A DNA stretch of 47,806 nucleotides from Planctomycetia bacterium (GTDB lineage Bacteria > Planctomycetota > Phycisphaerae > FEN-1346), in the NCBI GenBank assembly GCA_003170085.1, contig PMZT01000103.1:1-47806 (forward strand). Direction: 5' to 3'. Both the position numbers and the translations under genes were made by a program. Positions 19,502 to 45,407 of this stretch are shown one piece after another. How positions within the stretch are numbered: position 1 is the stretch's first letter; each line of letters starts with the position of its first letter. The notes under the pieces are model-generated. The model did no database searches, was not told where the DNA came from, and saw only the letters and a list, made by a program, of their open reading frames with translations.

Positions 19502-19503
19502 CC

Positions 19504-22138: not shown

Positions 22139-22537
22139 ATGGCTCCGAACGTAACGTACCTGTGTCCGACGTGCGACAACCGGATTCACCTGCACCTGCA
22201 ACAGTGTCCTCACTGCAAGGCGGACCTGACCCAGATTGCAGAGGCCGGGGAAGCGGCCGACGTGTGCTTCAACGTCGGGCTGGACGCCGCCCGCCGCCAG
22301 CAATGGGCCGATGCGCTGTGCTCCTTGGCGCTGGTCCTGCACTATCGGCCCGAGGATGCGGGGGCCTGGGTGCTCGCCGGCAAGGTCTATGCAAGGCTTG
22401 AGGCCAAGGACCGCGCGCGTTCGTGCTTTGCAGCGGCGTTGCGTCATGCGCCCCACGACGAGAAGGCTCAGGCAGCCCTGGAGGCGGTCGGCGGCGACCC
22501 GTCTCCAAGAAACACCTTGCGAGGGTTCCAAGCGTGA
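22139..22537 (+). CDS. Zinc-ribbon plus TPR small protein
   Basis: 132 residues from the ATG at 22139, preferred to the GTG six bases earlier because AGAAGG lies at 22125-22130. The N-terminus carries a treble-clef or ribbon pattern, C9-x2-C12 and C23-x2-C26 (CPTC, CPHC), expected to bind one zinc. Residues 40-115 form two or three TPR-like helix pairs (GLDAARRQQWADALCSLALV, LAGKVYARLEAKDRARSCFA). This pairing is common in adaptor proteins. An 85-base gap separates it from the Hsp70 gene, and its TGA overlaps the GTG of the next gene (GTGA at 22534-22537), so the following protein is translationally coupled to it. Confidence 0.82.
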   Translation: MAPNVTYLCPTCDNRIHLHLQQCPHCKADLTQIAEAGEAADVCFNVGLDAARRQQWADALCSLALVLHYRPEDAGAWVLAGKVYARLEAKDRARSCFAAALRHAPHDEKAQAALEAVGGDPSPRNTLRGFQA

Positions 22538-23883
22538 GCGTTTTCGGCCAATTCATGCAGGTATGTCAGGCAGAGAACCGCCGCCTGTGCGACTTGCTCG
22601 GCCAGTGGGCCACCGACCCGCGGCTGGGCGAACGCTCGGAACTGCCGCTGTGCCCCCCTCCCGCTCAGCCCTTCGCCTTGGCCCAGCACCTGCTGGACCT
22701 TAAGGCCGCGCTGCCGAACATCCAGCGTCCGTTCGTGACGCGGCGGGAGGTTGCTGCCGCACGGGCGGTACAGGCGGCACAGGCGGCGGCAACAGCCGAG
22801 GCAGACTCCTCCGAGAGCCCCCTTCGCCTGTCGTTCGCCTCCGAGGAACACGAGGCACCGCCGTCGGCGCCGGCCACGGCTGCCCCGGCGGCCGCTACGC
22901 CGGCCCAGGTCGGGCCGCGAGCCGAGCACCCAGGCGAGAAGTCGCGGAAACACATCAACGCGTTGTTGTCGCGCCTGGGAATCGAGATCGTCGCCCTTCA
23001 CGGAGGGCTCTTGGAGCGGTTGTCCGATATCGTCCTGGAGAGCCAGTTGCCGCGAGCCCTCCTTAGGGCCGGCGACAGTTTCCATGTCAGCGGCGTGTCG
23101 GTCATGGGCGCTTTGGCCCTGGCCAACCTGGCTTATCTCTGCGCGACGCGCCAGCGGATGGCCCCCGTGATCGACATGCCGATGAAAATCGCCCGCTTGC
23201 ACGCCGATCGTTTCGTCAACGGCGACCTGTTGTTCTGGGACCTGGCGGCCCGGTCGGCCGCCGCGGCACGCCGCGACAACGTCTTTGGCGACGAGAGCCA
23301 GGCCTTGCTGGACGAGTACTTTCCGGCGTTCTTGGCGCACAGCGTGGTGGCGAAACTGGACTTGGCGTTCGATTTCCCGATCGCGGTACTCGAGCGGGCA
23401 GACTATCGTACGTGGCCGGGCCTCAAGGCGCTGATGGTTCATCCAGGCGCCGAGTCCATCCGTTCCCGCGTCGTCGGTCGATTGGCCCTGCGCTGTGCCC
23501 AGAACCCGACGGTCGGCGTGGTCGTGGCGGGCCTCTGGATCCGTGCGATGTTCGGGCTTCCCGGGCTGGAGACTCATGCGGCGCTCCTGGCCGCCCGATG
23601 GTTGTGGGAACTGCTGGAAGCCAAGGAATCGGCCCTGCCGGAGATGATCCGCCAGGCCAAGGCCGCCGAGCCGCTTCGCAATGCCGTCAAACACATCGAG
23701 GCATTGCGTCAGAAGACCGCGCCCGAAGAGGAAGCGGGGCAGATGGACGCGCTGTCGTACTTGAAGGACGTGGCGTCCTGCCTGGACAGTTTCAAGGTGT
23801 ATCGCGGGTTATGCGAAATGAACCGCCTGGCTGCACCGGCCGAGGCGGCCAAGGTAACCGCTGCTGAGGAACCCCAATCATGA
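22534..23883 (+). CDS. Helical protein of unknown function
   Basis: 449 residues from the GTG at 22534, which overlaps the stop of the zinc-ribbon gene; the open frame extends further upstream but inside that gene. Residues 1-85 are helical, 85-140 form an Ala/Pro/Glu linker, and 140-430 form a compact helical domain with conserved-looking aromatic and His positions (IEIVALHGGLLERL, DRFVNGDLLFWDLAARS, LDEYFPAFLAHSVVAKLDLA). No signal peptide, clear membrane helix or catalytic motif is seen. Its ATGA overlap with the following MoxR gene (23880-23883) and position before the MoxR-vWA pair suggest that it belongs to that complex, in the slot occupied by third components in other MoxR-vWA systems. 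That role is inference; no family is recognised. Confidence 0.82.
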   Translation: MSVFGQFMQVCQAENRRLCDLLGQWATDPRLGERSELPLCPPPAQPFALAQHLLDLKAALPNIQRPFVTRREVAAARAVQAAQAAATAEADSSESPLRLSFASEEHEAPPSAPATAAPAAATPAQVGPRAEHPGEKSRKHINALLSRLGIEIVALHGGLLERLSDIVLESQLPRALLRAGDSFHVSGVSVMGALALANLAYLCATRQRMAPVIDMPMKIARLHADRFVNGDLLFWDLAARSAAAARRDNVFGDESQALLDEYFPAFLAHSVVAKLDLAFDFPIAVLERADYRTWPGLKALMVHPGAESIRSRVVGRLALRCAQNPTVGVVVAGLWIRAMFGLPGLETHAALLAARWLWELLEAKESALPEMIRQAKAAEPLRNAVKHIEALRQKTAPEEEAGQMDALSYLKDVASCLDSFKVYRGLCEMNRLAAPAEAAKVTAAEEPQS

Positions 23884-25475
23884 GCGAGACCCTCAAAGAC
23901 GTTCGCGCGGCATTGGCGGAAGGAAAGTGCCTGGTGGCCGTGTGTAGCGACGAGGCGTTTGGGTTGGTCCAGTCGTTCACCGACTCGGACCCGACGCCCG
24001 GCGCGGCCGGACGGCCCGTGTTTTACTGGGACCATCTTGATGGCCTGAGCGCGACCGGCGGAGCCAGTGTCCCGCCGAACACCGAGGAAGTGATGAACGC
24101 GCTGGACTACGCGGGCACCTTCAAGAAGCCGGCCCTCTTTGTGTTCAATCTGGACCAAGTGGGGGTTGCGGAGGCCGAAACCACGTTTCGCCGCGCGCTG
24201 CGGAACATGGCGGGGCACTTCATCCCGTCCGAACAGCGCGCTCTGGTCGTGGTGACGACCGAGCCGCTTCCCGAGCGAATCGCCGCCTTGTTCGCGCGCC
24301 TCGGGTATCCTGCGGCCCGCTCGGCCGTCGGAACGCGGGCGCGCACCGGCCCTGCGTGGCATGAGATGGCCCAACTGGAGAAGTTCGATACGGCCGCATG
24401 GCGCGAGCGGCTTGAGCACCTGACCGAGCAGGACATGGCGGAAATCGCCAGTGGGGGGTTCCACGGCGAAGCCGTTCGCCGTGTGCGCGACCTGCGCGAT
24501 GCGCTGAAGAGGCTCTATGCGCGGCGCGATGACGTGATCGACCTGATGACCTACGCCACGATCGCCCAGGTCCCGATGGTTCTCCTTGGCCCGCCGGGGA
24601 CCGCTAAGAGCCACCTGATCCGAAGTTTCTGCGAAGGGCTCGGCCTCGTATCCACCGGCCGCAAGCCCGCCGAATCGACGCCGGGCGATGAGGGCGGCAA
24701 CGGCAAGTCTACCGCCGGTTTCTTCGAGTACCTGTTTACACGGTATACCACGCCGGAGGAGATCTTCGGGCCGGTCCACATCCAAGACCTGATCGAGCGG
24801 CGTCTCTATCGCCGCGTGACGACCGGCCGGCTGCCGGAGGCGGAGGTGGCCTTCCTGGATGAGATCTTCAAGGCCTCCAGTGCGATCGTCAACACGTTGC
24901 TGGCGATCCTGAACGAACGAATCTTCCACAACGCGGACGTGATTCAGCGCGTGCCGCTGGTCATGATCTTCGCCGCCTCCAACGAGCCGCCGCAGGATGC
25001 GCAGTTGGCCGCCCTTTACGATCGCTTTCCGATCCGGGCAACGTGCGGTCGCGTGGAGGACGAACACGTCAACGAATTGTGGCAGCGCTCCTGGGAGATG
25101 AGTTTCGCCAAGCAGTTCCACCCGGAGGGGTTGACCTTGTCGCCGATCTCGTGCACCAACGATTTCCGGCTGTTGAACCGGATGGCGCTGTGCCAGTACG
25201 GGGGGCGGGGAACCTCCTCGGCCGGCGGGCCTGGGCACATCGACTTCAACGCGGAGTTTTTGCGGATTTTCCGGTCCCTGCGGCGGGACTACGACATTTC
25301 GGACCGGACGCTCCGACACCTGTATGCGCTCGCTCGCGCCACGGCCCTCGTGGAACGCCGCCCGCACCTGTCCGTCGAGGAGTTGAATGTGTTCCGTTAC
25401 GTCAGTTGGGATGAGACGGGTGCGGGCGAGTTGGCTCGCCTGGTCAATAACCTCAAGCGCGGAGTCAGCCTGTGA
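23880..25475 (+). CDS. MoxR/RavA-type AAA+ ATPase with an N-terminal Ycf46-like domain
   Basis: 531 residues. The C-terminal AAA+ module (about 205-531) is MoxR type: Walker A GPPGTAKS (237-244, K243), EIFGPVHI, Walker B VAFLDEIFKAS (D327, E328), NTLLAILNER and sensor-1 AASNEPP, then YDRF. The first 200 residues (LAEGKCLVAVCSDEAF, PVFYWDHLDGL, KPALFVFNLDQVG) resemble the non-catalytic N-domain of Ycf46-type ATPases, which is unusual for MoxR proteins. MoxR ATPases act as chaperones or remodellers with vWA-domain partners, and the next gene, overlapping by GTGA, encodes a vWA-like protein. The ATPase should be active. The N-domain assignment is by motif recall and less certain. Confidence 0.92.
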   Translation: MSETLKDVRAALAEGKCLVAVCSDEAFGLVQSFTDSDPTPGAAGRPVFYWDHLDGLSATGGASVPPNTEEVMNALDYAGTFKKPALFVFNLDQVGVAEAETTFRRALRNMAGHFIPSEQRALVVVTTEPLPERIAALFARLGYPAARSAVGTRARTGPAWHEMAQLEKFDTAAWRERLEHLTEQDMAEIASGGFHGEAVRRVRDLRDALKRLYARRDDVIDLMTYATIAQVPMVLLGPPGTAKSHLIRSFCEGLGLVSTGRKPAESTPGDEGGNGKSTAGFFEYLFTRYTTPEEIFGPVHIQDLIERRLYRRVTTGRLPEAEVAFLDEIFKASSAIVNTLLAILNERIFHNADVIQRVPLVMIFAASNEPPQDAQLAALYDRFPIRATCGRVEDEHVNELWQRSWEMSFAKQFHPEGLTLSPISCTNDFRLLNRMALCQYGGRGTSSAGGPGHIDFNAEFLRIFRSLRRDYDISDRTLRHLYALARATALVERRPHLSVEELNVFRYVSWDETGAGELARLVNNLKRGVSL

Positions 25476-27187
25476 ACTCACCCCCGCCCAAAGCCGACTT
25501 GTTGTCGTTTGCCCTGGGGTCGCTCCGCCTTGCGGGGACCCGGATCGAGAACTTCCGGGGTCCGTTGCTGCTTAGGGTCATCAACGACTACTACATGCCG
25601 TTCATCACCGCGGGCTGGACCGTGCCGCTGGCGTTTGTGCTGGATGTGTCTGCAATGCTCCTGTTCGGGGGGGTCGCGTACACGACGCGATGGAAGGATC
25701 CCCATCTGCCGCCCAAACTATCCGATCTGTCGCGCCGCTACTACCAGATGCTGCGTGAAATGCGCGGCAACCCGCTGTTCAGGCATGTGGCGCACTTGGT
25801 GAAGGGGGCTTCCAGCGACGCTCGTCGCAACGCCAGCATCCAGGTGTTCCTGCGGTTTCTATTGGCCGAGCTGTCGCACATTCCCAAGGTGGTGGCCTTC
25901 AACGCCCGCGATCTCCGGGTCCACGCCCTGCGCATGCGGACCGATTTCATCGAGAGCGCCTCGCTGACCATTGCCCAAAAGCGGACGAACGACGTTCCGC
26001 TGAACCTCGACTTGACGCGCGTGGACTTGGCCGATCCCAGCAACGAACTCCTGATCGACCTGATGGAATTCGTGGCGAAGTACTATTCGGAGCATCGCCT
26101 TGGGGAATTCATCAGCCCGGAAGAACTGTTCATGATCGAATACGCTGCGCGCAGCGACCGTTCCATCGAACGTATTGACTATCACCTGCTTCACCGTATC
26201 CTGACAGGGCCGGAGGTCGCCAAACCGGAAACGTGGCCGCCTTTGAACACGATGGTGGAGGAACAGATTCCGACCGAGAGCTATCAGCAGGATGGGCGGA
26301 TCGGCGGCTATGTCGACATCAACCGCAAGTGCCTGAGCGAGACGGTCAGCGAAATTCTGCCGGCCGAGTTTGCCCTCGCCCGGTTCCGGGAAGTCCTGTT
26401 CCACAAGCTGGTTAACGAAGGCGTGCTGCATTACATTCGCGAGGACATCGAACGAATCGAGCCCGAACTGCGAATCCTGTTCTATTTTGTCGTGGACTCG
26501 GGCTCGCTGATGCAGAAGCCGCCCGGAGAGGTCCACGCCCGTTTGGCGACCGGCATAACGCCCTGGGTGCTCGGCAAATCGCTCATGGTGGAGTTGCTCC
26601 GCGACTTGGCCCGCTATTTCCCGCGCAAGAACGTGCGCGCCGACGTCGTTTGGTACCTGTGGGGCCCCGATGAGTTCGGAAGCCCCGTGCCCGGCTATCG
26701 TGACAAGTTCGACCTGTTCGCCTGGGACGCCGAGCGGTCGGCCGATCGCTACGAGGTGGCCACGCGACTGGCCGAGGCGGCCCCCGCCTTCTTCTATCAC
26801 CACCTGAATCCGAGCGACCAGAACGAGTTCGTTCCGCTTGACCCGGATCCTTGGAGGAACTTCGAGGTTCTTAGCCAGAACCGTATGTACCATTGTCGGA
26901 ACCTGGTCTTGTTTACCTCGCCGATGACCCGTCGGGAATTCATGCCTGTCACCGACCTTGGCGTCAGCGGCGACGAGTACGGCCGCGACAGCATCTGTGT
27001 GGTGATACCCGATCCGTCGCGGCCCACGGTGGATATGGAGTGGCCGGCCTCTTTGACGGCCACCGCCTATGGCCGCGGAGGAACCCTTAGCGAGGAGCGC
27101 CTGCGGTCTCGTTTCCTGGAGACCGTGCTCTTGAAGGCGGCGGCGCGACGACCTCCGTCTGTTCAACCGGATATTGGAGACGCCTGA
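25472..27187 (+). CDS. vWA-like partner of the MoxR ATPase, degenerate MIDAS
   Basis: 571 residues from the GTG at 25472, which overlaps the preceding stop (GTGA). The N-terminal 300 residues are helical. From about 330 a Rossmann-like segment begins ILFYFVVDSGSLMQ (D342-S-G-S345), followed by a helix rich in LVELLRDLARYF and the strand ADVVWYLWGP, in the order expected for a von Willebrand A domain. The metal site reads DSGS rather than DxSxS, so metal binding may be lost or altered. MoxR genes are almost always next to vWA genes (RavA-ViaA type), which supports the call. No membrane helix is seen. It overlaps the next gene by TGATG at 27185-27189. Confidence 0.72.
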   Translation: MNSPPPKADLLSFALGSLRLAGTRIENFRGPLLLRVINDYYMPFITAGWTVPLAFVLDVSAMLLFGGVAYTTRWKDPHLPPKLSDLSRRYYQMLREMRGNPLFRHVAHLVKGASSDARRNASIQVFLRFLLAELSHIPKVVAFNARDLRVHALRMRTDFIESASLTIAQKRTNDVPLNLDLTRVDLADPSNELLIDLMEFVAKYYSEHRLGEFISPEELFMIEYAARSDRSIERIDYHLLHRILTGPEVAKPETWPPLNTMVEEQIPTESYQQDGRIGGYVDINRKCLSETVSEILPAEFALARFREVLFHKLVNEGVLHYIREDIERIEPELRILFYFVVDSGSLMQKPPGEVHARLATGITPWVLGKSLMVELLRDLARYFPRKNVRADVVWYLWGPDEFGSPVPGYRDKFDLFAWDAERSADRYEVATRLAEAAPAFFYHHLNPSDQNEFVPLDPDPWRNFEVLSQNRMYHCRNLVLFTSPMTRREFMPVTDLGVSGDEYGRDSICVVIPDPSRPTVDMEWPASLTATAYGRGGTLSEERLRSRFLETVLLKAAARRPPSVQPDIGDA

Positions 27188-29685
27188 TGGCCACGGCACG
27201 CACACACGCGGTTCAACGTGTTTCCCGGGCGCTGGAGTTTCGCTCCGCTTCGGAAGTGGGCAGTTTCCTTCTGACGTGCCTGGAGGTAGCGTCCCTGGCG
27301 CGCGGCACCCCTGTCTTTGACGAATGCTTGAACCGTATTCGCATCCGGAAACAGCCTCCTTATTGGGTGCACCTCCGGGTGATGGCTGACGTGGAGACCG
27401 TGGCCACGCTCATGCGTATCGCGGCCGCCAACGGAGGCACGGCCCACAAGCTCGAGGAAATGACCGCGGCGTACGAAGAGGTCGAACTGGCCAAGTTCCT
27501 CCGCCGCATCCGGCTGCAACCTCTTTCCGCCCAGGTGGCGTCCGATCGCCTGCTTCTGGCCCTGTGGGGATTCGATACGAAGCAATTGCGCGAGGCCCTC
27601 TTGGTGCTGAATGACATCGCTACGGCGCGCTGCGAGGTGGCGTTCATTGAAGCCGGCACGCCCGACATGCCGTCGTTCCTGATTCGCCTTCAGGGGTTGA
27701 CCCATCCGGACGCGGTTCTCAGTTGGGCTGCCGGCAGCAAGGGCAAGGTCGAGGTGTTTGTCCCGTACCAGGCGGAGGTCCATGCGGGGTTCTACGTGCG
27801 GCATGGCTACCGATTCCCGGTGGCCGGCCTGGACACGCTGGCGGACGTTCAGTCCGAACTGGTTCTGCTACGGCCGACCGAGAAGGGGGCCGCTCAGTGG
27901 GTTGTTTTTGCCGAGAAGCAACTGCACTTCTTCCGCAAAATGCACGAGGTGCTGGGCGCGGAGGTGAGCGCGACGGAATCCCCGCTGCTGGAATTGCGGG
28001 AAGGCCAGTGCGCCAACCGACTGCCTCTGGAACTCGCCCTTGTCGGCGACGGAGAAGGCACGCCCCTGCGCCTCTGGCAACTCGACAGAGTGATCGACCT
28101 CCAGCGTCAGAAACTCAACGAATTGGAGCGCCGCCGGCTTCGGTTGGCTTCCGGCAAGTTCGGCGATGTGTACTTCGCGTATCGGTTCGAGCAGCGTGGC
28201 GCAGACCGGCTGAATCCCCTGCTGATCCGTTTTCTCCAGCAGCGATTGGGCATCCTGGCCGAGTATGAGTACACCTGGTGCCAACCGGCCGATGGCCCCG
28301 GCTACCATCTGCTCGTGGCGCAGCGGACGGAGCGGCAACTCGGTTTCGGCGTTCAGTTGGCCGACGCGGTCTACTTCCAGCCCGAGGAATATCGCCGCTG
28401 GGGTGTTAACCTGTATTTGCCGGTCGGCCGGCGCCTTGTCCCGGGGCTGGGTGTCGATGATGCCGTTCCGCTCCTCCAGCAATTACTCGAGAAGACCCAG
28501 ACCCACGATGCCTCCGCGATTCTGTGGGATGACCTGGGAGCGGGCAAGGTCTTGGAAACCCGTGTTCTGGAAACCCAGCCGCTCCTGAGTCAGTTCCGTG
28601 TCCTGAACGCCTTCCAGCGGGCGGAGGCCCGCCAGGTGGCCGAGCAAACCCGGAAGACACTGATCGACCAATTGCGCCAGACTCGCGAGAGCCTGACCTT
28701 GTCCTGCCGCGATATCGAGCAGGACATCCTCACCTACATCGGTGCCCGTTGCGAGGAGATTGAAACAACCTACAAGGACCTCAACGAGAAGGTGGTGAAG
28801 GCCGAGAGCGAACTGGTCTGCTACGAGCCCGAGGTGGCCCGTGTCGCCGATTTCATCGAGCATATTCCGAACCTGTGGGCGGACTTCGTCCGAGCAGTCG
28901 TTGACCTGAACCGCCAGCTTGGCCGGGACCGGCAGGAGGCCTACGAGAATCTTCGCAACGAGTACGTGTACGAACATCGTCGGCTCCGGGCCATCGCCGC
29001 GTGCCATCGGGACCTGGCGGCCCAAATCCAACTGGCGGTGGACAAAGTGGCGATCGACCACGATGCCTTGGCCAAGGACTTGAGCCAGGCGGCCGAGACG
29101 CTCCGGCAGGGACGCGAGGTCAATGCCAAGCTCTTTGGAATCTGTGTCGAGATTCGCGACGCCTTCGAGAAACTGGCGGTTCGGCTCAAGGCCATCGCGG
29201 CGGTCCAGCAGAAGGCCGATCGCATCCAGACGGCGATCGACTCCGTCGATCAGCAGGAGCGAGAGGCCCGCGAACGTCTCAAACGCCTCGAAACCATCCG
29301 CGAACAGATGCGCGACCGCGAAGATAAACTCAAGCAGACCCAGGCCGAAGTCCAGGCCAAGGAGATCGACTCGGTCTCCAAGGCCGCCGAATTGACAAGG
29401 GCCGAGGATGCCCTGGTCCAACGCCTCCGCGATGCCGCCGCGAGGCTCCAGCGGCTCGAAGAGGACCTCCAGCGAATTGTCGCGGAGTCGCGGCAAACCG
29501 ACGAGCTATTCGCCGCCATCGATGAAGAGGCGGAGATGCTCAGGCGGAGGGCCGGCATCGTCGACCGCTGGCAGACGCATGCCGCCGCCTGGGCGGACTA
29601 TCTGAACGCCCAATACGGCGGTCTCCACCAAAAAGACGGCCAGGCCCGCGCGAAGGCCACGCCGGTGCCGCCTCCGAAGGGATAA
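27187..29685 (+). CDS. Large coiled-coil protein of unknown function
   Basis: 832 residues. The first 450 residues are mixed alpha/beta without a recognised family (for example PYWVHLRVMADVETVATLMR, LEVFVPYQ-like strands, ASGKFGDVYFAYRF near 320). Residues about 475-800 form a long coiled coil with heptad Leu and many Glu/Arg/Gln (QQEREARERLKRLETIREQM). The tail is Pro/Lys rich. There is no signal peptide or membrane helix. FGDVYFAY superficially resembles a kinase loop but no HRD or DFG follows. The start overlaps the vWA gene stop, so it is probably a subunit of the same assembly, perhaps a structural rod or bridge to the membrane protein at 30285. The function is not recognised. Confidence 0.85.
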   Translation: MATARTHAVQRVSRALEFRSASEVGSFLLTCLEVASLARGTPVFDECLNRIRIRKQPPYWVHLRVMADVETVATLMRIAAANGGTAHKLEEMTAAYEEVELAKFLRRIRLQPLSAQVASDRLLLALWGFDTKQLREALLVLNDIATARCEVAFIEAGTPDMPSFLIRLQGLTHPDAVLSWAAGSKGKVEVFVPYQAEVHAGFYVRHGYRFPVAGLDTLADVQSELVLLRPTEKGAAQWVVFAEKQLHFFRKMHEVLGAEVSATESPLLELREGQCANRLPLELALVGDGEGTPLRLWQLDRVIDLQRQKLNELERRRLRLASGKFGDVYFAYRFEQRGADRLNPLLIRFLQQRLGILAEYEYTWCQPADGPGYHLLVAQRTERQLGFGVQLADAVYFQPEEYRRWGVNLYLPVGRRLVPGLGVDDAVPLLQQLLEKTQTHDASAILWDDLGAGKVLETRVLETQPLLSQFRVLNAFQRAEARQVAEQTRKTLIDQLRQTRESLTLSCRDIEQDILTYIGARCEEIETTYKDLNEKVVKAESELVCYEPEVARVADFIEHIPNLWADFVRAVVDLNRQLGRDRQEAYENLRNEYVYEHRRLRAIAACHRDLAAQIQLAVDKVAIDHDALAKDLSQAAETLRQGREVNAKLFGICVEIRDAFEKLAVRLKAIAAVQQKADRIQTAIDSVDQQEREARERLKRLETIREQMRDREDKLKQTQAEVQAKEIDSVSKAAELTRAEDALVQRLRDAAARLQRLEEDLQRIVAESRQTDELFAAIDEEAEMLRRRAGIVDRWQTHAAAWADYLNAQYGGLHQKDGQARAKATPVPPPKG

Positions 29686-29691
29686 CGCTTG

Positions 29692-30288
29692 ATGCCATTG
29701 AACGATCATCCGAAGCCGCCGGCCGTGCCGGAGCAGCGAACGCCCGAGTTCCTGGCGGCACTGGATCTCCTCAGGAATCGCCTGGAAGCCTTGCCGGCGC
29801 TGGCGGCTGCCTTCGAGAAAGCCTTGCAGCCTGTCCGGACCCGCGTGGCGGCGATGGAAAAACAGGCGGCCACACTCCAAGCCATCGGTGAGGGCCGAGC
29901 GCCCGAGGTTCAGAAGGCCTTGACGCAGGGTAAGGCCGAATTCGACCGCCAGGCGGAACGGATCTGGGCGGCGGCGCACCGGATGACCGAGCGCAGGCAG
30001 CAGTTGCTCGCCCTGATGGGGGTCCAGCGTCTGGTGATTCGCGATTTCGTGGACGAGACCGCCAACCAGGATGCCCTGTGCACGTGCGGCCGAGCCATCG
30101 CCGCGGAGGGGACCGACGCGTACCTGAAGATGCGTCAGTGGATCGGTGGCCGGTTGGAGCGTTGGAGTCCGCGCCACCGAGGACCAGCGCCGGATGACTT
30201 GGGGAAAATCCTGGGGGTTCTGCCCGATCTGGAGCAGGCAGCGCCTTCCGTGCCGGCGCCGCCCGTGCCGGCTGAGGACACGCTGTGA
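29692..30288 (+). CDS. Small helical/coiled-coil protein
   Basis: 198 residues from the ATG at 29692, 6 bases after the previous stop. The N-terminal 130 residues are helical with coiled-coil character (FLAALDLLRNRLEALPALAA, MEKQAATLQAIGEG). A short cysteine pair (ALCTCGRAIAAEGTD) and a Pro-rich tail follow. No family is recognised. The TGA overlaps the GTG of the next gene (GTGA, 30285-30288), the third such GTGA coupling in this operon. It may be a partner of the larger coiled-coil protein before it or an adaptor for the membrane protein after it. Confidence 0.75.
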   Translation: MPLNDHPKPPAVPEQRTPEFLAALDLLRNRLEALPALAAAFEKALQPVRTRVAAMEKQAATLQAIGEGRAPEVQKALTQGKAEFDRQAERIWAAAHRMTERRQQLLALMGVQRLVIRDFVDETANQDALCTCGRAIAAEGTDAYLKMRQWIGGRLERWSPRHRGPAPDDLGKILGVLPDLEQAAPSVPAPPVPAEDTL

Positions 30289-32672
30289 TCTGGATATACG
30301 ACAATCTGATTCTTTATGCGGTTTTCGCCGTGTACTTCCAGGCGATCTGGCTCTGGATGCCGCCCCTGCTCGTTGCTGTTCTTCTGACGCCCCTGCACCG
30401 ATCCTCGGCCAAGGGCCTGACCTTGGGGCTTCTTCTCTGGCACGTGGTCTGCCTGTGTGCGTGGGACATGCACCGGTATGCCCCTGTGGCCGCGTGGGTT
30501 CTCGGCGGGGCGCTAATCCTTCGCCTCGCCGTGTGGGTCTGGTACGTGGCCCCTCACGGATGGTTCAGCACGGCGCTGATCCGCGCCAGCCTGTGGTTCG
30601 ATCCTGGTTGCAGTTACCTGTTTGACTTGGCGCGTGCGCGGCGGGGTTTGCCGGTCCTGCGGTCGCCTCGGCAGCGAAGAGACAACCTGCCCGCCATGGT
30701 CGCGCTGAAGACCCCATGCGGCCGCGTCTTCCTCGCGTTCGCTGCGATGTGCGACCTGGCGATCGGGCTTTACCCGCGATTGCCGGCCTATTGGCGGCTG
30801 GGACAAGGGACGGTCGATCTCGCCCAACCGCATGTGCGGGCCGTTCTGGAAAGCCAGCTTGCTCGCGTCCAGAACGAGGTGCGGCAAGCCTACCAAGACA
30901 CATCCTTGGGGACGTGGCTGAAACGGACGCCGCGGGAAAACGTGGAACAGGAACGCCTCGTTCGTCTGCACACGGAGCAACTGGCCCATCTTTACGAGGC
31001 CCTCGGAGAGTATGAGTACTTCCTGCGGCCGATGCCGAAGAAAGCCCGGCGGGACCTCCTCGGCGCGCATAATCAATTCCTGGAGGCGTGGCGCACCCGC
31101 TGTCGGTACGAGCACCTGTGGACCGAGGATGGCTTGGCGGCATTGGATGCGAGCGAACCGGCAACGCGGGCGGACGAGCCTGCGCCGGCCCCGTCGCCCG
31201 CGCCCGCCGGACCCATGAGCGACGAGGACCGTGCCTTGGCCGAGGAACTTCTTCAGTCGGAACTCGAAGGCCGGGCGGGACAGCCGGCAGGCGATACGAT
31301 TCTCGCCGATGAAGGCGCGGCGGAAGTCCGTGAGTCTCCCGCGGTATCGGCGAGCGTCCTGGTAACGGAGGAGGACCAGGCTTCTGAGAAGCCTGGTGGG
31401 ATCGAGGGCGACGCCGCTGCCGAAGAGCCCGCGGCGGCGGTTGCCACGGTCGTTCGCTCCAAAGACCGGCACGACGAAGCAGGGGTCGCGGCCCAAGACG
31501 GCGAACCGGGAGCCTCCATCGGTTCAGACGATCCCACGGGGGGGAAGGAAACAGGCGACACCGACGAACTGCTGTTTCGGACTGCCGCCGAGTTGGCCGG
31601 GGAGCGGCGGGCGTCCGCCCTCGGCAAAGACGGGGAACTGCCGACTGAGATGCTCGCGGATCATTGTCTGGCCGCACGCCACCGCGATGTCTGCGATGCC
31701 TGCGCCTGCATGGAAGTGACGCTGCATCTTGACCCGCCCGCCCACTTGGCACAGGCGGTTGCGCAGGCCCGGCCCTTCTTGCAGGACGAGCGTACGTGGG
31801 CGCCGGTTTTCCATCTGCTGGTCATGTACTGTGCGCGGTCCGACTGGACCGGTGAAGAGGCCGATCGCCTGCACATGGCGGTCATCAAGAGGCTGTGGAC
31901 CGACGTCTCCGACCGGGTTCAACGATTTCGGCCGGACTCCCCTCTGGACGAAAGAAGGGCGATTCTCAAAGCCAGGAGGGCCTTGGCGAGCCTGTTGCTG
32001 AGTCGTCGCGATTATGCTCTCATCCGTTCACTGTATCGGTCCTCCCAACTGACCCTCGTCGGCGAACTGGAAATCCTGGCCGAGGCGTGTGCGATGCTAT
32101 CCGAACAAGTCGGGGGCAATCAGGAACTGCGGAGCATCTTACGCTACGAGGCGATGGATCACTACTTCCGCGCGGGATACCGGGGCGTGTGGCGGCCCGA
32201 TGTATCGGAGCATCTGATTGGCCGTGTCGGTTCGCCGCGGCGCCAACTGGAGATCGTCAGGGAAAGCGCTCCGCCGGTTGCGGAAATCGCGCAGCCTCCC
32301 GCCGCCCCTCGCAAGAAGCCGCCCCAGGCGTCGGCCGTGTCGCCGGCTCCGGCGAACCAGAAACGCGTCGAAGGGGGGAAAGTGCGGAAGGATCCGGCGG
32401 CCAAGCAGGGACCGGAACTCCTCCAGGCCATCGCCGCCAGACTCGCCGGCACGTCGATCACCCTCAAGGCAAAGGCCAACGAACTCGGGAATCTGTACGA
32501 ACCGGTCACCGCGGAGCGCATCGCCAAGGCCCTGGCGACCGAAGGCTACAAGATCGCCCCAAAGCAGATCGCCATGGCAGGGCCGATCCGCACACTCAAC
32601 AAGTACCGCGTTCTGATCCGTCTGGCCCAGGGTATCGAGGCGGAAATCGGCGTATGGGTTGTGCCGGAGTAG
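30285..32672 (+). CDS. Membrane protein with C-terminal ribosomal-protein-L9-C-like domain
   Basis: 795 residues from the GTG at 30285. The N-terminus has three or four hydrophobic helices (about 8-35, 45-60, 66-88). A cytoplasmic stretch, an acidic Ala/Glu-rich disordered region (about 290-440), a Cys/His cluster near 460 (CLAARHRDVCDACAC) and a helical region (to about 640) follow. After a basic Pro/Lys linker, residues about 710-795 read like the C-terminal domain of ribosomal protein L9: ANELGNLYEPVTAERIAKAL, then KQIAMAGPIRTLNKYRV and a final EAEIGVWVV, matching L9's GKLFGSVT..DIA.AL / I.L..PIK.LG.Y.V / A...V.VV. There is no L9 N-domain. It could tether the complex to ribosomes or rRNA at the membrane, but that is speculation. 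Confidence 0.88.
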   Translation: MIWIYDNLILYAVFAVYFQAIWLWMPPLLVAVLLTPLHRSSAKGLTLGLLLWHVVCLCAWDMHRYAPVAAWVLGGALILRLAVWVWYVAPHGWFSTALIRASLWFDPGCSYLFDLARARRGLPVLRSPRQRRDNLPAMVALKTPCGRVFLAFAAMCDLAIGLYPRLPAYWRLGQGTVDLAQPHVRAVLESQLARVQNEVRQAYQDTSLGTWLKRTPRENVEQERLVRLHTEQLAHLYEALGEYEYFLRPMPKKARRDLLGAHNQFLEAWRTRCRYEHLWTEDGLAALDASEPATRADEPAPAPSPAPAGPMSDEDRALAEELLQSELEGRAGQPAGDTILADEGAAEVRESPAVSASVLVTEEDQASEKPGGIEGDAAAEEPAAAVATVVRSKDRHDEAGVAAQDGEPGASIGSDDPTGGKETGDTDELLFRTAAELAGERRASALGKDGELPTEMLADHCLAARHRDVCDACACMEVTLHLDPPAHLAQAVAQARPFLQDERTWAPVFHLLVMYCARSDWTGEEADRLHMAVIKRLWTDVSDRVQRFRPDSPLDERRAILKARRALASLLLSRRDYALIRSLYRSSQLTLVGELEILAEACAMLSEQVGGNQELRSILRYEAMDHYFRAGYRGVWRPDVSEHLIGRVGSPRRQLEIVRESAPPVAEIAQPPAAPRKKPPQASAVSPAPANQKRVEGGKVRKDPAAKQGPELLQAIAARLAGTSITLKAKANELGNLYEPVTAERIAKALATEGYKIAPKQIAMAGPIRTLNKYRVLIRLAQGIEAEIGVWVVPE

Positions 32673-33538: not shown

Positions 33539-36500
33539 TCAGACCGCCCCCCGAACCTCCTCCCCCCTGGCGAGCCTGATCACGCGGGCGGTTGAGATAC
33601 TACGCGGGTAAGGCCATTTCAAGCCCAAAAGTCGGCCGTGTCGCCGCAGGGTGATAATGTCCGGTTTCTGCAAAGTAGAATTGTCTACTTCCGGAGTGGA
33701 TACGCCAGCAGGACTGCAAAAGAGTGGGTCATCGAGGCTTAAGAAGCCGGTTTCCGTTCTCCTGCCCGAGCTACCGACGGGAATCGGCACCCCGGTGGTG
33801 ATGAACTGCACTTCCAGCCACGGCAACGACCCCGCCTGTTCAACGGTCACGGTGACCCCGGCTTGGCCGGAGGGCATGGCGTAATCGGCTTTCTCGACGG
33901 GACACTCCGCAAACCAGTGCCAGTTCTCGTCATACACGATCGCCGTGTCGCCGCCGGTGTATTGCAGGAACTGGCCGCTCGCGACAACGCCGCGCACACG
34001 CAGTTGGCCTGTGCCGACGCGGACGACAGGGTTCCGCAGCGTCACGGGGATTTCGCCCAGCGCGGAGAGTTGCTCGACCTTGACGGTTGCTTTCGCGTGG
34101 GGCGGGAGTTCGCCGAAGCCGATCCTGACGCTGCGCACTTTCGAGTAGTCGGTGCTCTTGGTTTCCATTCGCCAGCCCCAGGCGCTGCTGGCCCAGGAAA
34201 CTTCGCCGTTGGGAATTTCGACGTACCGGCGGCCATTGAAATCAATCGGAAGCACATAATCGCGGCGGCCGAGCTCCACAAGCACGAGTGCGCCGCTGTT
34301 GTCGCCTGTCAGCCACAGACCCAGCCCGCGCCGCCGCGTCATGTCCACGGCGAGGTTCCACGACGGGAGTTGTTCGATCTCGCGCTGCATCCGGTCGCCC
34401 GGATTGAAGGCCGTAAGCACCAGCGTGTTGCCCTCGAGCCGGGCGCCAGTGGAACCGTCCGCGTGAATCGCCTGTGCGCCGGCAGGCTGGAGCAGAACGT
34501 TCTCCACGGCGGCGCTCCCGGCGGCAGCAGTGGCCGCCTTGCTCTCCGGGTTAAACGCGGGCAGAACATGGATAATGAACTGAAGCGGCTGCGCAGCCTC
34601 GGGGTTCTCGAGCAAAAGAGTCTCGCCCGGCCTGATGAACTGTCGCGGAGAGATCGGGCCGTGTTCCTGGCCGTGTTGCCAAGGGATGTCGCCGGCCTTG
34701 CGTATAAGAACGCGCGTGGGAACGACCTCGTAACGGCCGTCCACGCACCTGGCCACCGGCACCACGGGCGAGCAGAGATGGTGGTTGAACTGCGCCGAGG
34801 CGCCCTTGGGCCGGCTGAAAAAGGCGTCGATGCGTTCGCGCTGCTCTTCGGTCAGCAACGTGCTGACTTCCTTCCAGGTGGCGAGGGCCTCGAGGAATTG
34901 GCCGGTCAGGCCGTGCGCCTTGAGCACTTGCGGCGTCACGCCGAACATCGGCTCCGGTTTGCAGATGCCCAGCGCGCCGCCGAGGTTGCCCTGGCTGAGC
35001 GTGAAATGCGCATCGAGCAGCGTGGTCGCCGGGCGCGACGGCGTGGCCAGCGTCACCGGCACGCTGTAGTTGCCGTGGCTGTAGGCGCAACTGCCGCGCA
35101 TGAGCCGGCGGGAGGAATTCAACCGGTACTCGAACCAGGCGGCCGGCCTTCGCCCCGAGCTGTCGTGCGACGTCGTCGGGTGATCGAGCGCTTCGTAGAG
35201 GCGCGCGGCGAACTTGCGATAGCCCCAATCGCCCTCGTACCGATGAATCTCGGCGCCGTCGAATTCCGCGTGCTCAACGAGGCAACGATTCAACAAGCCG
35301 GCGTAGTTCCGCGCGATTTCGTCGAGCAACGTCGAGTCGTTGTCGGGAACGAAGTTCTGCCCGTACGCGACGAGCAGGCCGGCGGCCTCTTCCCCCTGGG
35401 GGTGGGCGGCCGCCTTCGTCGAGCCTTGGCCGCGCTGGCAACGCTTCAAGGTCCACGTGCCGTCCGGCGCCGGTTCGATCTCGCCGATTCGGACAAGCTC
35501 GTCTCCGAGGCGCAGCATGTTCCATTCGAAGAAACGCGGATAAATCGGCCGATGCTGCGCGGGCGGGACCACGCCGGGCGCGGGCTGGAGAATGAGCGTC
35601 GTGTCGGCGGCCCCGCCGTCGCGTGCAAGCCGCCCGCTACCCCACGTGGCGAGGCGACGGTCGGGTTTCAGGCCGACATAGAGCGGATCGCGCAGGCCGA
35701 TGCCGCCGCTCACGTAGTGCAGGGCAAGATACATGCCCTGGCTTCGCACGAACTCGGCGAACTCCCGCAGATCCGTTTCACCGCGCGGAAAGACCGTGCG
35801 GTTGACCGCCCAGTTGAGATCGGTGCTCGGCCAGAACGCGTCCGTCCGCCAGGTGTCCGTAAACAGGTAGATCTGCCTGATGCCCGCGCGGCGGGCGAAC
35901 TCCACGCCCTCGTGAAGTTCCGCGATGCTCCGGCCCGCCAGGATAAGCTGGCTGCGGTCGGCGAAGCGGCGCTGCCAATCGGCCATCCAGCGGCGGGCGC
36001 GCTCCTCGGTCCACGCGCCTTCCCCCTTCGGATGCGGCAACTTCTCTTCCACCCAGAGGCGCAGCAACGTCGCGTCCTCATCCTCATCGCCGGTCTTCTC
36101 GTAAATCGCAAACCCGCCGAGCGGATCCTGCGGCGAACGATGCCACAACTCCCGCCACTCCACGCGCACGCCCTCGGGGACGTTGTCCGCGTGCGTCATG
36201 TAATCCAGGTCCAGCACCCGCAGACTCGGATCGGCGTTCATCTCGAAATACAGCGTCTCGAACCGCTCCGGCGGCACCCCCTCGACTCGTTCAATGCGCA
36301 GCGCCACGTGCCGCCGCCCGCGCGCCACGCGAAAGAGAACCGTCTTCGCGCCGTCTTCGCTACGGGCCAAGAGCCGGCCATCAGGCTGCAGGGACAGATT
36401 CGTCAGCCGCACGGGTGCCGCCACGGCCGTCTTCAGATAGAAGCCTTGGCCGCCATTGCCGGCGCGCAGCAACTCCGCGCTATCGGCTTTGCGCCGGCAC

Positions 36501-36688
36501 GCGCCGGGCCGGCCGTCGGACGCAAAAGTCAGGGTGAACGAATCCGCCGACAATTCGATTCCGTCCGCGGCGCGGAGAGGCGGCGAGAGGAAACAAAGCG
36601 CGGACACCAGAAGGAGCGCCGGCCAACGCCACGACGGCGACGCCGGCAGCAAGGCGGTGACCTGTGTGAGCGTGTGTTTCACGGTCAT
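33539..36688 (-). CDS. Large secreted protein, possibly a glycoside-hydrolase-like TIM barrel
   Basis: 1049 residues. The ATG at 36688 is chosen because it overlaps the upstream gene's TGA (ATGA, minus strand) and is followed by a signal peptide (WPALLLVSALCFLSPPLRA). A beta-rich N-terminal domain (about 45-220) precedes a segment resembling a (beta/alpha)8 barrel (about 265-500): EFARRAGIRQIYLFTDTW, REFAEFVRSQGMYLALHYVS, and FDGAEIHRYEGDWGY with acidic residues where catalytic groups might sit. Several beta domains follow to the end. No glycoside hydrolase family is firmly recognised. It is co-transcribed with the secreted beta-propeller protein and lies near a sulfatase and GH127, which supports a polysaccharide-degrading role. 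Confidence 0.78.
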   Translation of the reverse strand: MTVKHTLTQVTALLPASPSWRWPALLLVSALCFLSPPLRAADGIELSADSFTLTFASDGRPGACRRKADSAELLRAGNGGQGFYLKTAVAAPVRLTNLSLQPDGRLLARSEDGAKTVLFRVARGRRHVALRIERVEGVPPERFETLYFEMNADPSLRVLDLDYMTHADNVPEGVRVEWRELWHRSPQDPLGGFAIYEKTGDEDEDATLLRLWVEEKLPHPKGEGAWTEERARRWMADWQRRFADRSQLILAGRSIAELHEGVEFARRAGIRQIYLFTDTWRTDAFWPSTDLNWAVNRTVFPRGETDLREFAEFVRSQGMYLALHYVSGGIGLRDPLYVGLKPDRRLATWGSGRLARDGGAADTTLILQPAPGVVPPAQHRPIYPRFFEWNMLRLGDELVRIGEIEPAPDGTWTLKRCQRGQGSTKAAAHPQGEEAAGLLVAYGQNFVPDNDSTLLDEIARNYAGLLNRCLVEHAEFDGAEIHRYEGDWGYRKFAARLYEALDHPTTSHDSSGRRPAAWFEYRLNSSRRLMRGSCAYSHGNYSVPVTLATPSRPATTLLDAHFTLSQGNLGGALGICKPEPMFGVTPQVLKAHGLTGQFLEALATWKEVSTLLTEEQRERIDAFFSRPKGASAQFNHHLCSPVVPVARCVDGRYEVVPTRVLIRKAGDIPWQHGQEHGPISPRQFIRPGETLLLENPEAAQPLQFIIHVLPAFNPESKAATAAAGSAAVENVLLQPAGAQAIHADGSTGARLEGNTLVLTAFNPGDRMQREIEQLPSWNLAVDMTRRRGLGLWLTGDNSGALVLVELGRRDYVLPIDFNGRRYVEIPNGEVSWASSAWGWRMETKSTDYSKVRSVRIGFGELPPHAKATVKVEQLSALGEIPVTLRNPVVRVGTGQLRVRGVVASGQFLQYTGGDTAIVYDENWHWFAECPVEKADYAMPSGQAGVTVTVEQAGSLPWLEVQFITTGVPIPVGSSGRRTETGFLSLDDPLFCSPAGVSTPEVDNSTLQKPDIITLRRHGRLLGLKWPYPRSISTARVIRLARGEEVRGAV

Positions 36689-38295
36689 TTCCCATGGAGC
36701 GAGTCGGCTGGCACGAGTCGTTGGAACTTGGCCAGCCAACAGTCGCCATTGCCCCAACCCGCGGGGAATTTACCGCCGTTGGGGACAGATCCGAACCCCG
36801 GGTCTCCGCCGTACTTGCCCTGCCAGGCGTTCTTCGTGGGAAAATCCCTGCTGGTGGTAACGCCACCCACATACAACATGCCGTCGGGACCCACGCAGCA
36901 GGCACGGGCCATGTCATCGCCGGTGCCGCCCAGGTAGCTCGAGTAGATCAATGTGCCCAGGTCGTTGGATAGCATGGACACCACCCCGTCATAAGGATAC
37001 TTTCCGCCGGCGTCGGCGTTGCGGGCCTGGAAGGCGCCTTCCGTCACGGGGTAGTCGGTGGAACTGGTGCTGCCGGCCACCACCACGCGGCCCTGCGCGT
37101 CCACCGCGATCTGGTCGGGACCGTTGGTCTCGTGGCCGTTGCCCCCGAGATAGGTGGCCGCCAGCAACTTGCCCGTGGGAGAGAACTTGGCCACGCCGAA
37201 GTCCTCAGGTCCGCCGCCGAATTTCGTCTGGAAGGCCCCCGGTGTCACCGGCCACCTCTTCGTGCAGGTGCAGATGAAGATATTGCCACGCGGGTCCAGC
37301 GCCATGTTGTGCGTCCGCGGAAAGGCATCGGCGAAGTACGTGCCGAAGATCAGCCCTGACCCGTCGGCCGACACCTTGCCCAGCCAGCCCTCGCTCGGAA
37401 CCTGGCTGTACGCGTCGGGCGTCGTCGGCATGTCCTTCGAGAATGTCCGCAGGAGCACGACCGGGCAGTCATCGGAACCCACGGCCAGGGAGGCCACCCA
37501 ATCATTCCCGGTGGAACCCCCTATCCACGTCGCCCAGATCACCTTCCCCTCGCCGGAAATCTTGATGACCCCCGCATCACACTTGCCGAAATGGTCTCCG
37601 CCGCCGTGGGGCGTCTTCTGAAAGGCATTCGCAAACCAACTGGCCGGCAGAACCTCTTTGCTAGCGGCAAAGTAATCCAGGACACAGTAGAGGTTGCCCT
37701 TGTCATCCATCGTCATGTCGCGGACCGCATAACCCGTGCCGACATAACTGGCCCATACCCAGCCCGAGGCGTCGGGCTTGAGCTTGCCGACGAAGCCGCA
37801 GGGGTGGGCGGCGGTCGGCTGGAACGCCCCGGGCGTGGTGGGAAACCCCGGACGCATCCGGCCGGCCACAAACACGTGGCCCGTGCGATCCACCTTGACG
37901 CTGTAGAAGTACTCGCCGGCGACGACCTTGGACCAGACGAGTGTGCCGGCGGGGCTGAACTTGGCCACCATGGCCCCGCCCGCGTCGGATTGCCCCGGAA
38001 TGACGCCGGGGGTCCTGGGAAAGTCGGGCGGGCCGGCGACGCCCGCGACGTAGATGTTGCCCTGGGCGTCCACCGTCATGTCGCGGAGGAGATCGCCGCC
38101 CGCGCCGCCGAAGTACGTGGAGAACTGTAACTGGTACGTCAGGACCGCGGCGGCGGTTGATTTCGTGGCGGCAGGCGGGGAAGCGGGAGAACCCGTCTCC
38201 TGACCCGCGACCGACCGCTCCTGCACCATCGCCACGGCGAGGCAGAGCGCCACCACCGCGCCAAGAAAACGGGAGAGCCGCGTCGCGCGAGTCAT
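36685..38295 (-). CDS. Secreted SBBP-type beta-propeller repeat protein
   Basis: 536 residues from the ATG at 38295, which has AAAGGAG as ribosome binding site (complement of 38302-38308) and opens with a signal peptide (FLGAVVALCLAVAMVQ). Seven repeats of the form (V/A)D.(Q/R)GN(I/V)(Y/F)V.G followed by (D/G)FP.TPGAFQ can be counted, consistent with a seven-bladed beta-propeller. Examples are MTVDAQGNIYVAG, MALDPRGNIFICT and IAVDAQGRVVVAGST. Such proteins are common in Planctomycetota and are usually exported binding or structural proteins. The TGA overlaps the start of the following gene, so the two form a translationally coupled pair. No catalytic residues are evident. Confidence 0.88.
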   Translation of the reverse strand: MTRATRLSRFLGAVVALCLAVAMVQERSVAGQETGSPASPPAATKSTAAAVLTYQLQFSTYFGGAGGDLLRDMTVDAQGNIYVAGVAGPPDFPRTPGVIPGQSDAGGAMVAKFSPAGTLVWSKVVAGEYFYSVKVDRTGHVFVAGRMRPGFPTTPGAFQPTAAHPCGFVGKLKPDASGWVWASYVGTGYAVRDMTMDDKGNLYCVLDYFAASKEVLPASWFANAFQKTPHGGGDHFGKCDAGVIKISGEGKVIWATWIGGSTGNDWVASLAVGSDDCPVVLLRTFSKDMPTTPDAYSQVPSEGWLGKVSADGSGLIFGTYFADAFPRTHNMALDPRGNIFICTCTKRWPVTPGAFQTKFGGGPEDFGVAKFSPTGKLLAATYLGGNGHETNGPDQIAVDAQGRVVVAGSTSSTDYPVTEGAFQARNADAGGKYPYDGVVSMLSNDLGTLIYSSYLGGTGDDMARACCVGPDGMLYVGGVTTSRDFPTKNAWQGKYGGDPGFGSVPNGGKFPAGWGNGDCWLAKFQRLVPADSLHGK

Positions 38296-38392
38296 GCGTA
38301 ACTCCTTTAAGGTTGGACCCGTATCTTTCACGTGAGCCTTCGCCCATGACCGTCGCGGACGTCCGACCTTCATTGTATTGAAGAATAACCCG

Positions 38393-38503: not shown

Positions 38504-39982
38504 ATGAATCGTCGTGATTTTCTGAAACTGGCCGGCCTGGGCGCCGCGGCCCTGGCGCTGCCCACTGGGTTGAATCGTCCGACGGCCTGGGCCGCCGACG
38601 CCCCCGCGGCCAAGTCGCTGCCCAACCTCGTCGTCATCCTCATCGACGACATGGGCTACGGCGACATCGAGCCGTACGGCTCGAAAGTCAACCGCACGCC
38701 GAACCTCGTCCGCATGGCCGCCGAGGGCATGAAGCTGACCAGCTTCTACGCGGCTCCCGTCTGCACGCCGTCGCGGGCGCAGATGATGACCGGCTGCTAC
38801 GCCAAGCGCGTCTCGCTGCCCAACGTCCTCGGTCCGGTGTCTCAGGTGGGCATCAGCGCCGGCGAGCGGACCGTGGCGGACCTCCTGAAGGCCCGCGGCT
38901 ATGCCACGATGTGCATCGGCAAGTGGCACCTGGGCGATCAGCCCGAGTATCTGCCCACGCATCACGGGTTTGACAAGTATCTCGGGCTGCCCTACTCCAA
39001 CGACATGGGCGGCGCGGGAAAGGCCGCGAAGAAGCCGAACGGCAAGGCCGACGGCCGCCCGCCGCTGCCGCTCGTGCGCGATGACAAGGTGATCGAGGCC
39101 CCGGCCGACCAGGACAAGCTCACCGCGCTCTACACCGCGGAGGCCGTGAAGTTCATCACCGCCAACAAGGACCAGCCGTTCTTCCTCTACCTGCCGCACA
39201 CCGCCGTCCACACGCCGATCCATCCAGGCCAGGCGTTCCAGGGCAAGTCGGCCAACGGGCGCTACGGCGATTGGGTGGAGGAAGTGGACTGGAGCGTCGG
39301 ACGCGTCCTCGATACGCTGCGCGAACTCAAGCTCGACTCGCGCACCCTGGTCCTCTTCACGAGCGACAACGGCCCGTGGCTGATCCAGGGCAAGGACGCC
39401 GGCGTGGCCGGCCCGCTGCGCAGCGGCAAGGGGACGACGTGGGAGGGCGGCGTGCGTGAGCCGACCATCGCCTGGTGGCCGGGCAAGATCGCCGCGGGCG
39501 CCGCGTGCGACGCGCCGGTCAGCGAGATGGACGTGCTGCCGACGCTGGTGAAGCTGGCCGGCGGCCAGGTGCCGGCCGACCGGGTCATCGACGGCAGGGA
39601 TATCTGGCCGCTGCTCTCGGGCCAGAGCAAGGAATCGCCCCACGAGGCCCTGTTCTACTTCCACGGGAACCGGCTGGAGGCCGTCCGGTCCGGCCCCTGG
39701 AAGCTCGCCATTGCGCACCAGGGCACGGGTATCAGGAACGCCACCCCCGCCGAGGCCGCGCAGCCGTTCACGCCGGTGCTCTACAACCTGGACACCGATA
39801 TCGGTGAGACGACCGACGTGGCGACGCAACATCCCGACGTGGTGAAGCGGTTGCAGGAGTACGTTGCCAAGATGGACGCCGACCTCGGCGTGAAGGGCAC
39901 CGGCCCCGGCGTGCGCGATAGCGGCCACGTCACCGCTCCCAAGGCGCTCGAGATGGTGCGCGTTGCGATGGAATATGACTGA
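38504..39982 (+). CDS. Exported sulfatase (formylglycine-dependent)
   Basis: 492 residues, with AAGGAG seven bases before the ATG. The leader is twin-arginine type (MNRRDFLKLAG, then a hydrophobic stretch and AWA), so the protein is probably exported folded. The mature part is a type I sulfatase: metal-binding VVILIDDMGYGD (D48, D49), active-site CTPSR (C87-R91, C87 being converted to formylglycine), GKWHLG, and LFTSDNGPW late in the domain. It hydrolyses sulfate esters, probably on polysaccharides. Maturation needs a sulfatase-modifying enzyme not seen in this window. The stop converges on the metallopeptidase gene 52 bases away. Confidence 0.95.
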   Translation: MNRRDFLKLAGLGAAALALPTGLNRPTAWAADAPAAKSLPNLVVILIDDMGYGDIEPYGSKVNRTPNLVRMAAEGMKLTSFYAAPVCTPSRAQMMTGCYAKRVSLPNVLGPVSQVGISAGERTVADLLKARGYATMCIGKWHLGDQPEYLPTHHGFDKYLGLPYSNDMGGAGKAAKKPNGKADGRPPLPLVRDDKVIEAPADQDKLTALYTAEAVKFITANKDQPFFLYLPHTAVHTPIHPGQAFQGKSANGRYGDWVEEVDWSVGRVLDTLRELKLDSRTLVLFTSDNGPWLIQGKDAGVAGPLRSGKGTTWEGGVREPTIAWWPGKIAAGAACDAPVSEMDVLPTLVKLAGGQVPADRVIDGRDIWPLLSGQSKESPHEALFYFHGNRLEAVRSGPWKLAIAHQGTGIRNATPAEAAQPFTPVLYNLDTDIGETTDVATQHPDVVKRLQEYVAKMDADLGVKGTGPGVRDSGHVTAPKALEMVRVAMEYD

Positions 39983-41165: not shown

Positions 41166-41225
41166 GGGTGCCATGCTTTCGCGCCGTTGCGAAAGCATGT
41201 TCTCGCCCGCCGCGGCGGGGCACCC
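41166..41225. repeat. Palindromic element with two hairpins inside an outer inverted repeat
   Basis: Outer arms GGGTGCC (41166-41172) and GGCACCC (41219-41225) enclose a perfect 11-bp hairpin (CATGCTTTCGC, 6-base loop, GCGAAAGCATG; 41172-41199) and a perfect 14-bp palindrome (CCCGCCGCGGCGGG, 41206-41219). The element fills the gap between the GH127 and metallopeptidase genes and begins on the last base of the GH127 stop codon. It could stabilise the upstream mRNA end, attenuate transcription or be a non-autonomous mobile repeat. It has no U-tract, so it is not a typical intrinsic terminator. Confidence 0.75.
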
Positions 41226-43651: not shown

Positions 43652-43751
43652 GGTGTGTCCTCTCAACCCGTGTTCCCCGCTTGAACCCTTCCCGCCACAG
43701 ATCATGCTTTCCCGCCGCGCAGAAGCCGGAAAACCGCGCTGTCGCGCTAAA

Positions 43752-43856
43752 AAACTATCTCAGAACGGCCTTTGTTTGTGGCACAGCCGCCCTCGGCTGT
43801 GCTTTTCGCTCATTCGCACGCCCGAGGGCGGGCGTGCCACAGTTCTGAGATAGTTT
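43752..43856. repeat. Cloverleaf-like palindromic element (105 bp)
   Basis: A perfect 15-bp outer inverted repeat (AAACTATCTCAGAAC, 43752-43766; complement at 43842-43856) encloses a nested 8-bp pair (TGTGGCAC at 43777-43784, GTGCCACA at 43834-43841) and two perfect 8-bp hairpins with 4-base loops (CACAGCCG-CCCT-CGGCTGTG at 43782-43801; CACGCCCG-AGGG-CGGGCGTG at 43817-43836). It begins on the last base of the kinase stop codon and lies between kinase and GH127. No open reading frame or transposase is inside. The features suggest a MITE- or REP-like element or a structured mRNA end. Confidence 0.85.
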
Positions 43857-45397: not shown

Positions 45398-45407
45398 CGC
45401 GTCGTCC

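Follow-up and report, generated by a model that had tools for sequence, protein, structure and literature searches.

Within the window, the whole stretch of 47,806 nucleotides analysed here, a tightly packed operon ends in a gene for a 795-aa protein that we call TM-L9C (Table 1). The preceding genes encode an uncharacterised 486-aa protein, a MoxR ATPase, a vWA-like protein, a coiled-coil protein and a 199-aa protein. At most junctions the stop codon of one gene overlaps the start codon of the next, and the start of TM-L9C shares a GTGA with the stop of the 199-aa gene. These overlaps, together with a gene order that is conserved elsewhere, link TM-L9C to MoxR and bear out the initial annotation, which had made the protein part of a complex or operon. 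The MoxR system has HSP70, Clp AAA and kinase genes of its own beside it; Clp-type AAA+, Ser/Thr kinase and TPR proteins are encoded upstream of HSP70 on the same strand. PADLOC had no model for TM-L9C, and its kinase and Clp matches were generic domain matches (the ClpB-like protein to PDC-M37B and DolB).

Table 1. Coordinates of the operon, the chaperone-type genes upstream of it and the parts of TM-L9C. G434 and G592 denote the genomes with related operons.
Feature	Coordinates	Strand	Remarks
ClpB-like AAA+ protein with Clp_N	13590–15554	+	Clp_N plus a single AAA_2 ATPase domain
Ser/Thr protein kinase with TPR	15563–16870	+	Domain match
HSP70, extended at length on the C-terminal side of the ATPase part	19402–22053	+	Likely start downstream at MGKVVGIDLGTTNS
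486-aa protein directly upstream of MoxR	22423–23883	+	ORF; ATGA overlap
MoxR AAA+ ATPase	23880–25475	+	PF20030 bpMoxR, E = 5e-55; P-loop GPPGTAKS
571-aa vWA-like protein, N-terminal helical part	25472–27187	+	VVDSGS motif
832-aa coiled-coil protein	27187–29685	+	Distant homologue in G434 (27% over 271 aa); same slot in G592
199-aa protein	29689–30288	+	ORF; overlaps TM-L9C start
TM-L9C, 795 aa	30285–32672	+	GTG start; contains the L9 motifs quoted in the initial annotation
N-terminal membrane module, residues 1–164	30285–30776	+	~3 predicted transmembrane segments; homologous to N-terminus of G592 4208-aa protein
Strongly acidic low-complexity region, residues 291–440	31155–31604	+	Net charge −26
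Residues 441–655	31605–32249	+	Helical by appearance; no detectable homologue
Remnant of bL9 linker helix, residues 684–713	32334–32423	+	5 Gly/Pro per 30-residue linker
Ribosomal L9 C-terminal domain, residues 714–793	32424–32663	+	PF03948 match, fold
Tip loop, corresponding to residues 83–93 of E. coli bL9	32472–32504	+	K83 kept, K89→N, F91→Y, G92→E, S93→P

The vWA-like protein combines its motif with an alpha/beta (strand/helix) order suggestive of a vWA domain. It had no Pfam vWA match even at E ≤ 10, and its AlphaFold model was too poor to use (pLDDT 38). The protein ends about 240 aa past the VVDSGS motif and matched no propeller family. Pfam likewise found no TPR or propeller match in TM-L9C, in which a membrane module is present. 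Residues 16–34 and 68–86 are hydrophobic and score as transmembrane, and a third segment is plausible at about residues 45–62, so the N-terminal membrane helices of the initial annotation stand as two clear segments and one probable one. An Arg-rich stretch comes after the third membrane segment, and the positive-inside rule predicts that the C-terminus, some 700 residues with the L9 domain among them, lies in the cytoplasm.

Several other genes lie outside the operon. A CHAT protease-like domain fused to Clp_N (3363–5762, − strand; PF12770, E = 9e-29; PF02861, E = 1e-15) is encoded on the strand opposite to the chaperone operon and looks like a caspase-like protein of a conflict system. A 535-aa protein (7058–8665, +) weakly matches TCAD9, ternary complex associated domain 9 (PF19974, E = 0.0026). 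Convergent with the operon are genes for a large unannotated protein that weakly matches Rcc01698_C (33539–36757, −) and for a protein with SBBP beta-propeller repeats (36685–38373, −). Beyond these lie a sulfatase (38504–39982, +) and sugar-utilisation genes (41225–47608, −) for a GH127 beta-L-arabinofuranosidase with an F5/8 domain, an FGGY kinase, a URO-D-like protein and a RhaT symporter.

The L9 C-terminal domain of TM-L9C and its rarity

Pfam Ribosomal_L9_C (PF03948) matched residues 714–793 of TM-L9C with 60.2 bits (E = 2.7e-16; cut-off 23.2 bits), and a sequence search of the PDB with the protein returned bL9 chains only (best E = 4e-7). In an AlphaFold2 model of the tail, built with 14 bL9 relatives, the C-domain reached a pLDDT of about 84–91, with about 89 for the predicted fold, and most of the linker stayed below 50. 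Foldseek searches with this model found only bL9 at E < 1e-3 (e.g. 1div and 6y69_H, TM-score by target 0.82, rmsd 1.5). The initial annotation had recognised an L9 C-domain pattern and proposed a profile search and a structural superposition; both agree with it. It had assigned the last 85 residues to the pattern, which needs correction: homology begins earlier, at about residue 684, inside the bL9 linker (PAPANQKRVE in TM-L9C, PTPVNLKRVE in bL9).

The whole-protein model TIGR00158 aligned solely at model positions 46–148 and reached 35.5 bits, below the whole-length equivalog cut-off of 58.6 bits. Since the match starts at position 46, the 23S-binding L9 N-domain is absent, as had been noted from the sequence. 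We rejected TM-L9C as a bL9 in its own right: it has no N-domain, no whole-length score and no rigid connecting helix. What it shares with bL9 is the domain itself, by sequence and by fold. The architecture, a membrane protein carrying an L9 C-domain, is established at the level of sequence.

This architecture was a singleton among the genomes searched when such proteins were counted. A second L9_C match occurred only in this genome, one in 416 genomes having an L9 C-domain. In the phylum sample of 392 genomes, each L9_C-positive genome has exactly one, except this genome with two, and among the 47 genomes with the nearest MoxR loci, 46 have one and the 47th has none. In three further genomes (G314, G298 and G425), long frames that carry one L9_C proved to be ordinary bL9 genes with a stop-free upstream frame. 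For residues 1–672, a search of 298 genomes of the class gave no credible relative, its one marginal match covering 69 aa (E = 7e-4), and short patterns scanned across GTDB gave none either. With the fusion in one genome alone, there is no way to show that the architecture as such is conserved.

The initial annotation knew of no earlier description of such a membrane protein, which is not strictly right. The NCBIfam family NF011110 (PRK14538), named "putative bifunctional signaling protein/50S ribosomal protein L9", is, like TM-L9C, a long non-ribosomal protein ending in an L9 C-domain; we take its members to be GdpP-type membrane proteins. Unlike TM-L9C, NF011110 appears by its length to hold a whole L9 and probably serves as the cell's L9. 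TM-L9C scored 14.5 bits against this model (cut-off 707), with no whole-length match.

Origin and remodelling of the tail

The genome of the window (4.47 Mb, 88.9% complete), placed in the phylum Planctomycetota by its kinship with G434, encodes a separate complete bL9 on another contig. Linker and C-domain of the TM-L9C tail are about 56–61% identical to bL9 of its own family, and residues 677–795 are 56% identical to the genome's own bL9. In an IQ-TREE phylogeny of 34 sequences, the tail grouped among bL9 of the same family (support 91/87) within an order-level clade (98/94), on a long branch (0.55 vs 0.08–0.31). An NG86 comparison of the tail with the genome's own bL9 gave 0.234/0.661, a dN/dS of about 0.35; the estimate is rough, but a neutral tail would be expected to lie clearly higher, and bL9 orthologue pairs of the family gave 0.27–0.37. 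As judged by these codon comparisons, the tail shows purifying selection. From the same-family branching, the homology in the linker and the dN/dS, we read the tail as a recent in-house copy of the linker and C-domain of the host bL9, kept under constraint, and not as an ancient architecture. A cross-species assembly chimera is unlikely, given that the tail belongs with same-family bL9 and is encoded in one uninterrupted frame.

The copy has been remodelled. Planctomycete bL9 has 23 columns conserved at 80% or more; the tail is identical in 19 of them, and it keeps the lysine at position 83. Position 89, an asparagine, is variable in the phylum; the tyrosine at position 91 keeps an aromatic residue and is also common in bL9. 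The near-invariant Gly92-Ser93, in contrast, has become Glu-Pro, states present in none of the 33 bL9 compared. The net charge of the C-domain is +3, against −11 to 0 in the 33 bL9 C-domains, and the 30 linker positions hold five Gly/Pro, against none or one in all bL9. With the linker helix broken by these five residues, the linker is probably a flexible tether, as far as sequence and model allow. TM-L9C thus differs from bL9 in having no 23S anchor, in its non-rigid linker and its altered, more positively charged domain, and in being attached to a membrane. In these alignments, what was a rigid bL9 arm appears as a flexible basic tether, the domain surface has turned basic, and the rRNA-contact tip is partly kept and partly remodelled.

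Related operons and MoxR ternary systems

Two related operons place TM-L9C in a wider context. In G434 (VGYV01000361.1), a planctomycete of the same phylum, homologues of MoxR (43%), the vWA-like protein and the coiled-coil protein follow each other in the same order, and the contig ends before the TM-L9C slot. In G592, likewise a planctomycete, the same gene order is followed by a 359-aa gene and then, in the TM-L9C slot, by a gene for a 4208-aa membrane protein, in which no L9 domain was found. Each of the two genomes has one L9_C. The membrane modules of TM-L9C and the G592 protein gave a Smith-Waterman score of 92, which none of 3000 shuffles reached (maximum 83), including shuffles that kept local composition; by this comparison the two modules are homologous. 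Homology between residues 441–655 and the G592 protein was unsupported by shuffling. A profile of the membrane module matched, among 27 genomes tested, only TM-L9C and the G592 protein.

Past the module, the G592 protein continues with another membrane segment and then about 3300 aa with blade-like motifs, where TM-L9C instead has the acidic stretch, the helical region and the L9 domain. The blade-like region has a weak period near 38–39 and no Pfam propeller match in the parts scanned; it may form a beta-propeller. RHS-repeat proteins adjoin both related operons: a 2192-aa protein in G592 (L048:3624-10130, contig C683; PF05593, E = 3e-34) and an ORF in G434 (L050:7366-8793) with RHS-like motifs by eye.

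The locus resembles the MoxR-vWA beta-propeller ternary systems (subsystem 4, PMC7159879), which are present in planctomycetes and use a bpMoxR ATPase. The 2020 eLife paper describes a GxxxTAKS P-loop in the beta-propeller and the FtsH ternary conflict systems (PMC7159879), and the MoxR protein of the window has both this P-loop and the PF20030 match. Further likenesses are the neighbouring degenerate vWA-like gene, the membrane-anchored third component and a precedent for ribosomal-protein domains: in Bacteroidetes, the vWA component of these systems was reported to carry L12/ClpS insertions, as yet unexplained (PMC7159879). Unlike those systems, the window has no propeller detectable in the vWA-like or membrane protein and carries HSP70, kinase and Clp-type AAA genes just upstream, and its ribosomal domain is L9 rather than L12 and sits on a different subunit. 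Because no propeller was found on the vWA-like protein and its vWA domain is unproven, we regard the operon, on its gene content, as related to the beta-propeller ternary systems and do not file it as one. It is a rare chaperone-type operon, probably of a conflict or defence system.

Possible roles of the L9 domain

The reading that we tentatively prefer, although its chances fall somewhat short of even, is that TM-L9C is a membrane-tethered module for docking to ribosomes or RNA that was captured by the MoxR-centred chaperone system. TM-L9C would be the membrane-anchored component of a planctomycete operon related to the beta-propeller ternary (conflict) systems, its cytoplasmic C-terminus having captured a copy of the host bL9 C-domain on a flexible basic tether. 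The captured domain would keep ribosomes, polysomes or structured RNA in contact with the membrane complex and could block access of elongation factors when the MoxR/HSP70/Clp machinery rearranges that complex.

Tethering of this kind, suggested in the initial annotation, is plausible because in E. coli the tip of the bL9 C-domain docks onto a neighbouring ribosome: in that queueing ribosome, K83, K89 and F91 stack into the groove of 16S h5/h15, and the docked tip blocks the factor-binding site (PMC10897467). Two of these three contacts, K83 and an aromatic residue at position 91, are kept in TM-L9C, and the basic shift of the domain is what an RNA-docking role would favour. Docking to 16S rRNA could be weakened by the change of Gly92-Ser93 to Glu-Pro, since S93F, the hop-1 mutation, causes a loss of fidelity (PMC4399890). 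It also counts against this reading that the fusion occurs in one genome, that the vWA partner could not be confirmed and that the C-domain alone did not complement the loss of L9 in E. coli (PMC4399890). In its strongest form, the docking reading would make the domain an elongation-blocking effector. In the most far-reaching version, which we consider distinctly unlikely, an immunity-like conflict system would have turned the host ribosome-collision spacer into an effector that MoxR/HSP70/Clp releases or presents, that docks at the 30S factor-binding site and that stops or captures ribosomes at the membrane.

In this locus a membrane chaperone or conflict operon appears to have taken a modern ribosomal-protein domain from the host bL9, with measurable remodelling in the lost rigid arm, the gained positive charge and the altered tip. 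Given the factor-site block by the bL9 tip (PMC10897467), the fusion predicts a membrane protein able to grip or stall ribosomes, and the parallel to the L12/ClpS insertions (PMC7159879) hints at ribosome contact as a theme of ternary systems.

The same tip can be read differently. Its new Glu-Pro would suit a stable small alpha/beta domain that binds MoxR, the vWA-like protein, the 199-aa protein or HSP70 and has no role at the ribosome, and the related slot in G592 holds a long, presumably propeller-like region, an interaction module, instead. Such protein-protein docking is unlikely, if still worth serious consideration; a surface more basic than in any bL9 compared and the retained K83 and aromatic at position 91 speak against it. 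That a recent copy of the host's own domain, with fold and core conserved, sits on a component of a conflict-related operon could also mean that TM-L9C displays it as a decoy, binding invader factors that attack or bind ribosomes at the L9/factor-binding region and so tripping the chaperone-gated complex. A bait surface should be kept, whereas here the most exposed loop is what changed, and no invader factor directed at the bL9 C-domain is known to us; we consider this reading improbable.

The net basic domain and tether might bind another RNA (mRNA, tRNA or phage RNA) rather than the ribosome, and in P. aeruginosa binding of bL9 to the exsA 5′ UTR has been reported (PMC10931766); we give this quite a low probability. 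Least probable of all is a non-functional gene fusion tolerated at the C-terminus. Its presence in a single genome and the long branch of the tail would fit such an accident, but the selection signal disfavours it: the dN/dS is within the range of bL9 pairs, the tail has no stop or frameshift, and fold-critical residues are kept though dS is about 0.66.
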